NCBI RefSeq assembly: GCF_010092505.1
Contig: NZ_CP048021.1
Location: forward strand, 1,984,001-2,048,000
Source of the DNA: Virgibacillus sp. MSP4-1
GTDB lineage: Bacteria; Bacillota; Bacilli; Bacillales; Alkalibacillaceae
Length of the DNA: 64,000 bases
Direction: 5' to 3'
Shown: piece by piece, positions 2,404 to 32,394 of the stretch
Position numbering within the stretch: the stretch's first letter is position 1
Layout: each line of letters begins with the position of its first letter
Position numbers and translations under genes: made by a program
Notes under the pieces: generated by a model
The model's input: the letters and a program-made list of their open reading frames with translations, nothing else
Databases searched by the model: none
What the model was told of the DNA's origin: nothing

Positions 2404-3013
2404 GGATTTGTTCGTTTGACAATGGATGAATTTACTTGGAATTGGATGGATTTATTTGAAATTGGATGAATACATGGTTTTCCGGCTTAAATGTTAAAAA
2501 AATAGATCAATACCTGGATAGGAGGCTTAATAGGCTTTGGTTAAGAAGATAAACGAATATTTATGATTCATTGACAAAATTCCGGCTTAATCAGTTTTAA
2601 ATCCGGACAGATTATTTAAAAAATCGGATGAAATCCTTTTAAAACAGGATCAATTCCATTCATTAATAGATGAAAATTAACCATTTAAGTTTAATCCTTA
2701 CTGAAACGGATCAATAAGAATAAAATAGGACGAATGATGCTGGATTGGGAAGAAAGTACCACTTTTACGATTAATTCGGCGACATTCCGATTAAATACCC
2801 CGATTCCGGATTAATTTTTCCAAATACAGGACAGATTATTTTTAAAACTGGCTTAATTATTTTCAAAAGCGGTTGAATTCGCTGGGATACAGGCACAATT
2901 CATATAATTTTGGTTTAATGAAATGCTTTTTGGATCAATTCCTTTACGATCCACAAGAATCGAGCTTCCCGCTGTTTCATTCGGCGAGAGGCTGGATCAA
3001 GATCAATCTAACT
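2404..3013 (+). repeat. Degenerate 20-21-bp tandem repeat array (array 1)
   Basis: About 29-30 units follow each other in a register of 20 or 21 bases across the gap between prfB and yvjA. Each unit starts with a core of the type GGATGAAT, GGCTTAAT, GGATCAAT, GGACAGAT or GGTTGAAT, followed by 12-13 variable AT-rich bases. Cores at 2404, 2424, 2444, 2464, 2892, 2912 and 2932 were placed on coordinates, and the spacing stays in phase. The mix of 20- and 21-base steps breaks any reading frame, so it is not coding. The same core and spacing recur at 30867-31578. Function is unknown. Confidence 0.8.
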
Positions 3014-6803: not shown

Positions 6804-7159
6804 ACATTCGCACCTCTATTTAGTAAGATCACGCTTTATTAAAATAGTCCTCTCTACATCATAACACTAAAGGGTTCATCATGACAATAAAGTCCCCGTC
6901 GCACACATATTACTAGGTGCAAAACCATCGCTCCGGGAGTATACTTCGCTAAAGTTGTGTACACTATTTTTTCGGATCTTGTGGAAAATGAAGACACTTT
7001 TTATTAGGGACAACCCAACCAAATTCTAAGTTACGCAGCTGTTTCGTCAAGTAGTGAAGGATTCTATTATCTGTCAGGATCGAAACCTAATGTGTTAGAT
7101 AGGACTGTTTTAACCATTATGTATTCTGATTAAGCAGCTAAAACCTTATAAAAAAATTT
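6804..7159. other. Intergenic region upstream of secA, no gene seen
   Basis: About 350 AT-rich bases upstream of secA. It should contain the secA promoter, but no unambiguous -35/-10 pair was fixed. No open frame with a ribosome site and no long repeat were found. Confidence 0.5.
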
Positions 7160-7196
7160 TAATAAAAAAGAAAAATGCAGCGCGGTGGCTGCATAT
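7160..7196 (-). terminator. Terminator of the 48-residue CxxC gene
   Basis: Minus strand: ATGCAG and CTGCAT arms around an eight-base loop, then a T-rich run. It lies about 85 bases after the stop of the small gene at 7280 and supports that gene as a separate transcript. Confidence 0.75.
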
Positions 7197-7279
7197 ATTG
7201 AGGAATCGTATTCAACGCGGAAGGAAGAGGTGTGCAGGGAGCGTTTTACCCTCCTGCTGGAAACCGTGGATAAGAGGTA

Positions 7280-7426
7280 TCAAACTTTTTTTACATGCCT
7301 TTTTTCCAAATCGCTCATTCGCTGATTCATTTTAGCAACATATTCGACCAGTTGTGCTATGTATTTTTCATGCTGTTTGATCCGGTTCTCTTGTCTTTGG
7401 CAGTGAGGGCAGCTTTGGTGGGACAT
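7280..7426 (-). CDS. 48-residue putative zinc-ribbon/coiled-coil micro-protein
   Basis: A short gene with a strong ribosome site (AAGGAGG, seven bases before the ATG at 7426). The product starts MSHQSCPHCQRQENRIKQHE. The CPHC knuckle near the N-terminus could bind a metal or act as a thiol pair. The remaining roughly 38 residues are charged, with heptad-like hydrophobic positions (YIAQLVEYVAKMNQRMSDLE), suggesting a short coiled coil. It sits alone between secA and hpf and has its own terminator at 7160-7196. I do not recognise a named family. The support is the ribosome site, terminator and composition; no homology search was possible. Confidence 0.7.
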   Translation of the reverse strand: MSHQSCPHCQRQENRIKQHEKYIAQLVEYVAKMNQRMSDLEKRHVKKV

Positions 7427-7765
7427 GAATACGCCTCCTTTGCTTTCGTTAAAATAGTTATACCACGAACAGGAAAGGAAGAAAAATCGCTGAAATTAAA
7501 ATACAGCGTCGAATTTTGCGGGTTCTTTGGCGAATTTTGTCAATTTCAAGGGGATTACATGAGGTTTCATTGACTAAAACTTAATTTTAGACAAATTTTT
7601 TAACGGCAGTATTTTTTTGGAATACATATTTTAAACAGCATTTGTATAATCTATATAGGGCAGAAACAAACAAATCCGACAGAGCCTATACGACGATGAG
7701 AGAAGTCTTAAATGTCGCCGGGAGACTGAACAGAATGCGGACGTTCCTGAATCCAAAAATTTATT
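7427..7765. other. Intergenic region between hpf terminator and the micro-protein gene
   Basis: Contains the ribosome site and presumably the promoter of the micro-protein gene. A possible but weak -10 (TATAAC) lies about 30 bases upstream of that ribosome site. The 92-codon plus-strand frame here is antisense to the micro-protein gene and is not supported. Confidence 0.4.
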
Positions 7766-29759: not shown

Positions 29760-30605
29760 TTATTTTTCATACCAGGTAAGTCCGATGGCGCCTTCCCCTA
29801 AGTGGGTTCCGATAACAGGGCCAAAATAGCTGATTTTACAGGTTACGTTCTCATATTTGCTCTCCAGATCCTGCTTCCACTGCTTAGCTTCATCCTCGCG
29901 CTGGGAATGAATTACACAGGCTTCAATCTGTTTACCGCTGCTGGCATCCTCATCAAAAAGCTCACGCACCCGGTTTAACGCCTTTTTACGTGTGCGGATT
30001 TTTTCAAATGGTTCAATTTGCCCATCAACAAAGTGCAGGATTGGCTTCACCTGAAGGAGGCTTCCCAGCATGGCCTGGGCTGTATTCAGACGTCCTCCTT
30101 TATGTAAATTGGTTAAATCATCCACCATAAAATAAGCTTTGTTTGAGGCTTTTACTTCATCCAGTCGGGCAATGATTTGTTCTGGAGGGGTGTTCTTTTC
30201 TGCAAGCTCAACTGCTTCAAGGGCCATAAATCCCTGCGCCATACAGCTAATCTCAGAGTCATACGCATAAACATCAAGATTTTCAACCGTCTCTCCTGCC
30301 GCAACAGTTCCCTGCAGCGTACCACTGATGCCGCTGGAAAGATGAACCGCAATGACCGCGTCAAAATCCTCACTCAGCTCCTCCAACTTTTCTCTCACTA
30401 AACCAATCGATGGCTGAGAGGTCTTCGGAAGCTCCTCCACCTCGCGCATCTTCTGGTAAAATTCATCTGTCTCAATATCTACTTCCTCCTGATAGGATTC
30501 ATTGCCGAAAATCACATTCAGGGGAACCATATATATATTCCACTTATCACGGAGATCCTTGGGAATATAAGCCGTACTATCGGTCAGCACCGCCGTCTTC
30601 ACCAT
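29760..30605 (-). CDS. degV: DegV family fatty-acid-binding protein
   Basis: DegV/FakB-type protein that holds a fatty acid for phosphorylation by a FakA kinase. The 281-residue product has the N-terminal TAVLTDSTAYIPKDL, the central SSGISGTLQGTVAAGE loop and the lipid-contacting LTNLHKGGRLNTAQAMLGSL segment, followed by KPIL. ATG 30605 has AAGGATGA at good distance; a GTG two codons upstream is an alternative. It lies near degU/degS, as in B. subtilis, but is separated from them here by a G-rich tract and repeat array 2. Confidence 0.93.
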   Translation of the reverse strand: MVKTAVLTDSTAYIPKDLRDKWNIYMVPLNVIFGNESYQEEVDIETDEFYQKMREVEELPKTSQPSIGLVREKLEELSEDFDAVIAVHLSSGISGTLQGTVAAGETVENLDVYAYDSEISCMAQGFMALEAVELAEKNTPPEQIIARLDEVKASNKAYFMVDDLTNLHKGGRLNTAQAMLGSLLQVKPILHFVDGQIEPFEKIRTRKKALNRVRELFDEDASSGKQIEACVIHSQREDEAKQWKQDLESKYENVTCKISYFGPVIGTHLGEGAIGLTWYEK

Positions 30606-30728
30606 ATTCACTCATCCTTCCCATCTATTTTTAGAATTCTCTATCTCTCATTTCCATTTGTACGTTATACCTTTCTAATATTTTACACATATTTATTTGA
30701 AATTGCATTAATTAGGGCGTAATTTTAT

Positions 30729-30866
30729 TGGGAAATGTGGATTGAGGTTTGGGAGTTTGGGGGGGGTTTGGTAGCTGGATGTGGTGGTTTGGATTCGTTT
30801 GGGGGGGTTGGGCTGGGGTTTGGGGATGGGGTTTTGGAATTGGGGTTTTGGAATTGGGGGCCGGCG
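30729..30866 (+). other. G-rich tract with G-quadruplex potential
   Basis: Plus strand with G runs of 8 (30759-30766), 7 (30801-30807), 3, 4, 4 and 4 bases, with loops of 2-4 bases in 30801-30831, meeting the simple G-quadruplex pattern. It lies upstream of degV and directly abuts array 2. The 72-codon frame here is Gly/Trp-rich low complexity and is not a gene. Confidence 0.75.
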
Positions 30867-31578
30867 GGCTTAATTCGGAATGAACTCGACAAATGCTTCA
30901 CTTTTTGGATGAATTATGATTTTATTGGACGAATCTTTTTTTTGGAGGATTGATTCTGTCATTTTCCGGCTTAATCATTTACAGAATTGGTTGAATTATT
31001 TCAGAAACTGGATTAATTATTTTCATTTTAGGCTGAATTCGGTGGAGGGGGGTTTAATTATTTGATTTTGGGATTAATTGTACGGGGGACGGCTTCATTC
31101 TTCATTATCGCGACAGATCCTGCTCTTCCTGGACGAATCACACATTCATCGGACGAATCCTCTTCCTCCAGGATTGATTCTGCCATTTCCGGCTTAATCA
31201 TTTACAGAATTGGTTGAATGATTTCTGAAACTGGATTAATTATTTTCATTTTAGGTTGAATTCGGTGGAGAGGGGGTTTAATTATATGATTTTGGGATTA
31301 ATTGTACAGGGGACGGCTTCATTCTTCATCATCTCGACAGATCCTGCTCTTCCTGGACGAATCACACATTTACCGGACGAATCCTCTTCCTCCAGGATTG
31401 ATTCTTCCATTTCCGGCTTAATCATTTACAGAATTGGATGAATGATTTCTGAAACTGGACGAATTATTTTCATTTTAGGTCGAATAAAACTAGAGACTGG
31501 ATGAATTCCCATTTTATCGGTTAAAATACTATGAATCTGGCTCAATTCGACTCAATCAGGCCGAATACTTGTATACAA
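30867..31578 (+). repeat. Degenerate 20-21-bp tandem repeat array (array 2) with higher-order repeat
   Basis: About 34 units in strict 20-21-base register, each starting with a core such as GGCTTAAT, GGATGAAT, GGACGAAT, GGATTGAT or GGTTGAAT. Cores at 30867, 30907, 30927, 30947, 30968, 31191, 31415 and 31436 were placed. Blocks of 11 units recur as near-identical longer repeats: the same order of units starts at 30968, 31191 and 31415 (steps 223 and 224). Array 1 (2404-3013) shares core and spacing. Both lie upstream of a minus-strand gene and beyond the terminator of the previous one. Confidence 0.85.
30968..31492 (+). repeat. 223-224-bp direct tandem repeat, about 2.3 copies
   Basis: Copies begin at 30968, 31191 and 31415 (the last partial). 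Differences are scattered substitutions, such as GTACGGGGGAC versus GTACAGGGGAC. A partial match also precedes the first copy (GGACGAAT and GGATTGAT units). Recent duplication inside an older degenerate array is the simplest reading. Confidence 0.9.
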
Positions 31579-31663
31579 ACTCAACCTACACACTCATCCA
31601 AGCCAAAGATTAAAGCTGATTTTCACCGAATCCTGCAGCATCCCCATCATTCAGGTACAACGA

Positions 31664-31697
31664 AAAAACAGACCCTGGCTAAAGGGTCTGTTTTCCG
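31664..31697 (-). terminator. Intrinsic terminator of degU
   Basis: AAACAGACCCT and AGGGTCTGTTT form an 11-bp stem with a six-base loop and TTTTT tail on the minus strand, 18 bases after the stop. Confidence 0.92.
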
Positions 31698-31713
31698 TTT
31701 CTCTCTCTATATC

Positions 31714-32394
31714 TTACTGTACTTCCACCCAGCCGTTTTTAATTGCCTGTACAACGGCCTGGGTTCGATCGTTGGCGTCCATTTTCTGCAGAATATTGGA
31801 TACATGGTTTTTGACGGTCTTTTCACTGATATACAGTGATTCAGCAACTCCCCTGTTGCTTTTACCGTCTGCCAGGAGCTGCAGTACCTCGCACTCTCGC
31901 CTCGTAAGCAGATGCAGAGGCTTGCGGTGCTCGGCCCTTTTCAGAGCATTGGCTCCATTGTTTCCATTGGCCAATCGGCGGTATTCCTTCACAAGATTGT
32001 GAGTAATTTTCGGATGCAGATAGGATCCACCGTTATAAACGACTTTTATGGCATCTATAAGCTCGTCCGTTTCCATTTCTTTAAGTAAGTATCCCTGTGC
32101 TCCTGTTTTCAGGGCGTGTGTGACGTAATTTTCATCATCATGGATAGACAAAATAATAACTTTTAAATCCGGGAATTGATTCACAAGATTTTTAGTGGCT
32201 TCAACTCCATTAATCGAAGGCATATTTATGTCCATCAACACCACATCCGGATGATACGTACGAACTAAGTCGATTGATTGGTTTCCATCATCACCTTCAG
32301 CAACCACTTCGAAATCTTCTTCAAAATCCAGAATGCGTTTAATGCCTTCACGAAAAAGCTTGTGATCATCAATTAATACGATTCTTGCCCCCAC
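31714..32394 (-). CDS. degU: Response regulator DegU
   Basis: DegU is the NarL/FixJ-type regulator that controls exoenzymes, competence and motility in bacilli. The 226-residue product has a receiver domain with [16 protein letters not shown], the phospho-acceptor Asp in VVLMDINMP (about residue 56), a linker (about 125-155), and a LuxR-type helix-turn-helix [40 protein letters not shown]. The start is GTG at 32394 with AGGAGGT and AGGAG upstream. It lies 138 bases after degS; no strong terminator separates them. Confidence 0.97.

Follow-up and report, generated by a model that had tools for sequence, protein, structure and literature searches.

What is the run of short, degenerate direct repeats that fills the gap between degV and a degU-like gene in Virgibacillus sp. 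MSP4-1, and does it stand alone? The window, that is, the whole stretch of DNA analysed, comprises 64,000 nucleotides, and a sequence-only reading of it had described a single satellite-like array in that gap. The features concerned are as follows (the name degU was assigned by position beside a DegS-like kinase ORF).

29760–30611, minus strand: degV, left neighbour, given as context (TIGR00762, E 2.6e-103).
30867–31566, plus strand: array of 35 degenerate 20/21-bp units with the core GGNNNAAT (chain scan score 172.8; shuffles).
30968–31190, plus strand: higher-order block 1, 11 units, 223 bp (213/224 identical to block 2).
31191–31414, plus strand: higher-order block 2, 11 units, 224 bp (213/224 identical to block 1).
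31415–31566, plus strand: third block, partial and more diverged, with the end of the array.
31714–32394, minus strand: degU-like response regulator, right neighbour, given as context (NarL-type response-regulator matches).
2424–2939, plus strand: second GGNNNAAT array of the window, 26 units, more degenerate (chain scan score 84.4; TRF rows at 2423 and 2835).

The last of these belongs to the same family and adds to the one array first described. In the array at 30867–31566, the steps between units are exclusively of 20 or 21 bp, and the exact core occurs 26 times, beginning at 30867. Set against 1000 dinucleotide shuffles, the identity at lag 20 is 0.419 (shuffle maximum 0.324), at lag 21 0.378 (0.318), and at lag 224 0.699 (0.346); the 26 cores compare with a maximum of 5 in the shuffles, and the 18 core steps of 20/21 bp with a maximum of 1. 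The reversed-sequence control of the chain scan gave no array of comparable length. The array and its 20–21-bp register are thus real, far beyond the shuffles. The higher-order period of 11 units, with recurrence at 223 and 224 bp, is equally confirmed (TRF: period 224, 2.4 copies). The sequence-only reading also had all cores facing the same side of the helix. Runs of three to five steps of 21 bp in this array do match two helical turns, but most steps here are of 20 bp, each about 1 bp less than two turns of 10.5 bp, so that a common face for all cores is not supported. A coding repeat can be rejected, as had been proposed, since the 20/21 steps are mixed and the ORF search gave no convincing candidate. 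A known structured RNA was rejected likewise, with zero Rfam matches in the window and in seven array-bearing loci.

The genome-wide search for the core, called for by the sequence-only reading, shows that the window array is one of about 20 in the 3.33-Mb genome. The triplet pattern (three GGNNNAAT cores at 20/21 steps) occurs 145 times and not once when the genome is read backwards. In the 851 kb covered by the chain scan there are 16 clear arrays of 9–83 units, and none in the reversed sequence; all are intergenic, except for short mechanical ORFs within two of them. Array positions were taken from the full list of 50 matches to a strict 21–21 pattern, some of them outside the scanned 851 kb, and all 50 fall at 1.986–3.219 Mb. 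The densest cluster, at 2.309–2.394 Mb, is about 0.3 Mb from the window and surrounds the gene NERD-A (see below). A near-perfect 21-bp tandem of GGATAAATGATGGAAATCGGT at G000:C1:2427863-2427912 also matches the pattern; it may belong to a coding sequence or be an array of recent origin. A common architecture recurs in the family, with three to five steps of 21 bp in runs, then steps of 20 bp, and with higher-order periods of 11, 11, 13, 13, 13, 15, and 18 units. When the copies of a block are compared, differences occur in 2.4% of comparisons at the five fixed positions of the core and in 9.9% in the spacer (Fisher p 3e-15), a core divergence four times lower, although the exact ratio is to be taken cautiously since the array finder favours good cores. 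With this somewhat biased measure, the core appears to be under selection between block copies.

The borders of the arrays have a strand polarity of their own. For the window array they are:

30727–30866, plus strand: left border, G/T-rich (GC skew +0.79 over the 100 bp preceding the array).
31567–31660, plus strand: right border, C/A-rich (GC skew −0.46 over the 100 bp that follow the array).

The same arrangement, G/T-rich in the 100 bp to the left and C/A-rich in the 100 bp to the right, is found in 15 of 16 arrays of this genome (p 6e-10 against control gaps) and reads identically on both strands. No strand bias was seen beyond 100 bp, into the neighbouring genes. In other genomes, the outer borders of an array–gene–array unit are polar in this way and the inner borders are not. 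A specific hairpin formed by an array's two borders was rejected, the own partners pairing no better than borders of other arrays. The polarity would fit repeated single-strand exposure flanking a central break, or forks meeting there.

The position beside degV was followed in relatives. In Salinibacillus kushneri, a close relative (DegV 88% identical), the degV–degU gap is without an array; the placement in that gap, correctly described for the window, is therefore not conserved. At the place of the left border of the window array, the S. kushneri gap (L060) has a short G/T-rich stretch, either a leftover or pre-existing. Arrays with other cores lie near degV in Neobacillus, Jeotgalibacillus, and Alkalihalobacillus, and it is through these relatives, retrieved by DegV, that a partner was found: each such array is close to an ORF that combines a NERD domain with a zinc ribbon and an apparent HTH. 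In five of the six DegV-retrieved loci (L061–L064 and the window at 29760–32394), arrays or array-linked NERD genes occur within 6 kb, in varying genera and places, and the degSU-degV-comF region may be a favoured array site. In the two Jeotgalibacillus loci (L062 and L063; about 7100–7500, reverse strand), a hairpin-like recurring CATGAAG stretch splits the 21-bp units, and these sister species have different cores at one place.

Virgibacillus sp. MSP4-1 itself has five NERD genes, of which two (NERD-A and NERD-B, 39% identical) belong to the subfamily that joins NERD to a zinc ribbon and a winged helix (NERD–ZnR–wHTH). The first lies outside the window:

G000:C1:2322072-2323031, minus strand: NERD-A gene, with NERD (PF08378), zinc ribbon, and C-terminal wHTH.

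NERD-A sits amid the densest cluster, and about 0.2 kb separate its start from an GGNNNAAT array of 37 units. NERD-B has GATAAAT-type arrays on both sides, with a core unlike that of NERD-A, so that the two paralogues of the genome correspond to two different array families. The arrays of the window are linked to NERD-A by the shared core, at a distance of about 0.3 Mb and not by adjacency.

Across Bacillales relatives, a 20/21-bp array is present within 800 bp of the gene in 82 of 90 NERD–ZnR–wHTH loci, the other eight lacking a detectable one. Lags of 20 or 21 score best in 109 of 180 flanks, against 13 of 90 gene bodies. They do so too in 24 of 40 flanks of a further, deeper sample, whose 20 loci come mostly from a different family of the class. 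The protein profile has matches in 117 of 150 relatives, from one to a dozen per genome; at class level, the protein is found in 47 of 300 genomes. Where arrays occur on both sides of a gene (n = 21), some of them inverted relative to each other, their mean core similarity is 8.6, compared with 1.1 between loci. The cores also differ between paralogues within one genome. The core noted by the sequence-only reading is thus present in the window array but is not a fixed one: as an order-wide motif, GGNNNAAT was rejected, being one among dozens of cores.

Such adjacency could mean that the gene-side arrays are operators for autoregulation and the dispersed ones titration sites, or spilled copies without further role. 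Arrays do stand directly upstream of the gene in many loci, and a core common to the arrays of both sides would suit an operator. An operator, however, needs neither the arrays that often occur downstream only or on both sides, nor up to 83 units, nor units scattered far from the gene, and we regard this explanation as quite unlikely.

The number of copies varies with the gene. Compared with the 145 GGNNNAAT triplets of the present genome, there are 1 and 3 in two genomes of the same genus without a NERD-A orthologue. Pairs of CGCGGATAT number 914 in a genome that has the matching helix, 15–18 in three others and 2 in a fourth genome of another family, and 0 in two genomes outside those lineages. 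In the closed genome G067, all GTGCATAG arrays are within 154 kb of the cognate gene; they are absent from one genome of the same genus (whose genes are untyped). Array copies follow the presence of the cognate gene and cluster around it.

Which part of the protein does the core follow? Among pairs of proteins with NERD identity below 0.6, those in the top 1% of core similarity have a wHTH identity of 0.50 versus 0.40 (p 5e-4) and a recognition-helix identity of 0.40 versus 0.24 (p 1e-3), with no difference in NERD-domain identity (p 0.55). Over all protein pairs the correlation between core and wHTH is weak (Spearman 0.095, p 0.036). Core similarity thus appears to follow the wHTH and not the nuclease domain, weakly so over all pairs. 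The helix SRH occurs with the core GAGC in 6 of 7 cases against 0 of 71, and further rules associate SxS[VIT]xxK with GGA[CT] and an Asp-bearing helix with GCnGAT; these are leads only, having been spotted in part of the data before counting. Signals of the CsrA or Rho type, at the RNA level, were dropped as identity of the arrays because the core differs between paralogues and follows the helix of the protein.

These results also bear on neutral satellites, which would arise by slippage or unequal recombination and lie beside NERD genes by chance or through a shared preference for loose intergenic DNA. Higher-order blocks are typical of unequal exchange, and the turnover of arrays is fast, the orthologous gap of a close relative having none. 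Neutrality is nevertheless very improbable with the adjacency at 82 of 90 loci, the cores shared between both sides, the covariation of core and wHTH, and a core conserved beside a diverged spacer.

The protein has the marks of a nuclease-family domain joined to a predicted DNA reader. One member (P0001) scores 79.1 bits with Pfam PF08378 (cut-off 22.1), and five other proteins tested are likewise above the cut-off. The restriction-like nuclease residues (G-E, D, E-x-K, and Q) and four cysteines are kept in 66–67 of 67 proteins, and in a comparison of 62 the nuclease residues vary hardly or not at all. In an AlphaFold model of a NERD–ZnR–wHTH protein (pLDDT 96, pTM 0.89), the predicted N-terminal part resembles nucleases of the Can2/Cdn1/McrC type with middling scores (Z 7–8), and the predicted C-terminal part resembles winged-helix domains. 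No family member with a solved structure was found by sequence search. Within a conserved frame, the predicted recognition helix varies extremely. Some of the genes in the match list of relatives contain stops; many array-linked NERD genes are listed with internal stop codons, which may reflect frequent gene decay.

A nuclease domain next to repeat arrays raises the question of defence, in which arrays would hold the nuclease or mark it as self, and incoming DNA would be attacked upon its release or where arrays are missing. NERD domains are found in phage-defence proteins, there are weak matches to MADS6 (E 1.7e-8) and PglW (E 0.077), and the paralogues are multiple, fast-diversifying, and of changing specificity. 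Yet no PADLOC model matches meaningfully (best matches E 0.012 and 0.077, both partial, in a 2023 library whose silence is no proof), the flanks read show single genes without a defence operon, and the arrays are near the gene rather than genome-wide. We therefore hold defence to be unlikely.

The reading that we prefer is that the dispersed GGNNNAAT arrays are binding-site satellites of the cognate NERD-A, and for this pairing with binding we estimate a probability of about 80% from comparative sequence evidence. It is carried by the adjacency of gene and array, the core that follows the wHTH and is conserved, the invariant nuclease residues, and the clustering at the gene. The guess of the sequence-only reading that a protein binds the array gains support here, through the pairing of core and wHTH gene family and through the conservation of the core relative to the spacer. 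The wHTH would read the core, with about one protein per unit and several aligned two helical turns apart.

How the pair acts is much less sure. The NERD protein may cut or nick within the arrays; the break would be repaired by copying, through which arrays would grow into higher-order blocks, seed new arrays in nearby intergenic DNA, and acquire the G/T-left and C/A-right bias of the borders. Such cleavage-driven local copying is our leading guess, a tentative one, and the main reason for leaning to it is the border polarity together with the retained active-site residues and the clustering near the gene. A report on nickase-induced tandem-array expansion suggests that copying of this kind is feasible (PMC12008805). 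Protein and arrays would in that case act together as a satellite and nuclease that propagate themselves and whose word changes repeatedly. It is conceivable, with the same reserve, that these loci form a new selfish or semi-selfish class, in which a NERD – zinc-ribbon – winged-helix nuclease multiplies tandem arrays of a private 8–10-bp word locally; in that case the words may switch rapidly between paralogues and species.

The same pairing could instead serve the host, with NERD-A on its arrays bridging or positioning the origin half of the chromosome for organisation, tethering, or segregation. The arrays are confined to 1.986–3.219 Mb, with dnaA at 2.702 Mb, and GC skew, as sampled, is consistent with an origin close to dnaA; 30 of 41 NERD–ZnR–wHTH genes lie in the origin half (p 0.004; 13/16 genomes, closed or nearly closed); and direct-repeat arrays resemble plasmid centromeres. 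A host role nevertheless seems unlikely: core and copy number vary between species of one genus, the protein is missing in many relatives, genes and arrays in G138 are mostly far from the origin, and the nuclease residues are retained. The origin-side bias may come from breaks being repaired more easily with sister copies present, or from an origin-side role.

Several known systems share features with cognate arrays of this kind. Plasmid iterons repeat directly, with units about two helical turns long, next to the gene for the winged-helix Rep protein that reads them, and their word differs between relatives. At NERD loci, too, direct repeats adjoin the gene whose protein, from the covariation, probably reads them, but the arrays are chromosomal and dispersed, reach 83 units, form higher-order blocks, and have a NERD partner of the PD-(D/E)XK type. 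No Rep initiator domain was found (Pfam finds NERD alone), and the genes are on chromosomes with no replicon seen; an origin from phages or plasmids was rejected, the matches being distant ones to one phage record and six from plasmids, partial throughout and at 24–35% identity. Plasmid centromeres of the ParR, TubR, or AspA type also combine short direct-repeat arrays with HTH-type proteins near the gene, and AspA bound to DNA is a weak fold match of the modelled C-terminal part (Z 5.3). They differ from the NERD system by its nuclease domain and its dozens of chromosomal sites; no motor gene of the ParA/ParM type was found in the flanks read (just 0.7–1.5 kb in most loci). With homing endonucleases and other self-propagating nucleases the NERD system would share a sequence-specific protein of nuclease type, multiplying targets, and patchy, multi-copy, often broken genes, but the target is a tandem array flanking or scattered around the gene and not an empty allele, and cutting is putative.

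In eukaryotic higher-order satellites, diverged monomers occur in recurring multi-monomer blocks with a short conserved protein-binding box. The sequence-only reading was right about a satellite-like higher-order layout; a lone eukaryote-like satellite it is not, since the array belongs to a dispersed family tied to a NERD – zinc-ribbon – winged-helix gene. The NERD arrays and their units are much shorter, bacterial, and with paralogue-specific cores tied to the adjacent gene. Many intergenic sets of short direct repeats, from two copies, are also known in Beggiatoaceae, where a post-transcriptional role was proposed for TAACTGA heptamers (PMC4679880), but there the heptamer is a single fixed one and a NERD partner is unreported. 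The NERD domain of NERD-A is common to SmdA of Staphylococcus, PglW, and MADS6. SmdA is a cell-division membrane protein lacking several conserved NERD residues (PMC9040797), PglW and MADS6 differ by kinase parts, and no arrays are reported with any of the three. The role of NERD in bacteria was stated in 2022 to be previously unstudied (PMC9040797). In the open-access literature we found no earlier report of NERD with repeats or intergenic arrays, an absence that is suggestive, and a protein–array pairing with a private word per copy thus appears undescribed.

With this pairing, NERD, a domain without a settled function in bacteria, gains a concrete DNA target, one that sequence data suffice to identify, and the many pairs of helix and word form a natural library for learning a recognition code. 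Families of higher-order satellites that have a protein partner of their own thus occur in bacteria, and the pairing would explain the repeat arrays that lie unannotated between genes in many genomes of Bacillaceae. If cleavage drives the growth of the arrays, they would offer a simple bacterial model for the origin of satellites and for the mutual chase between satellite sequence and DNA-binding specificity.
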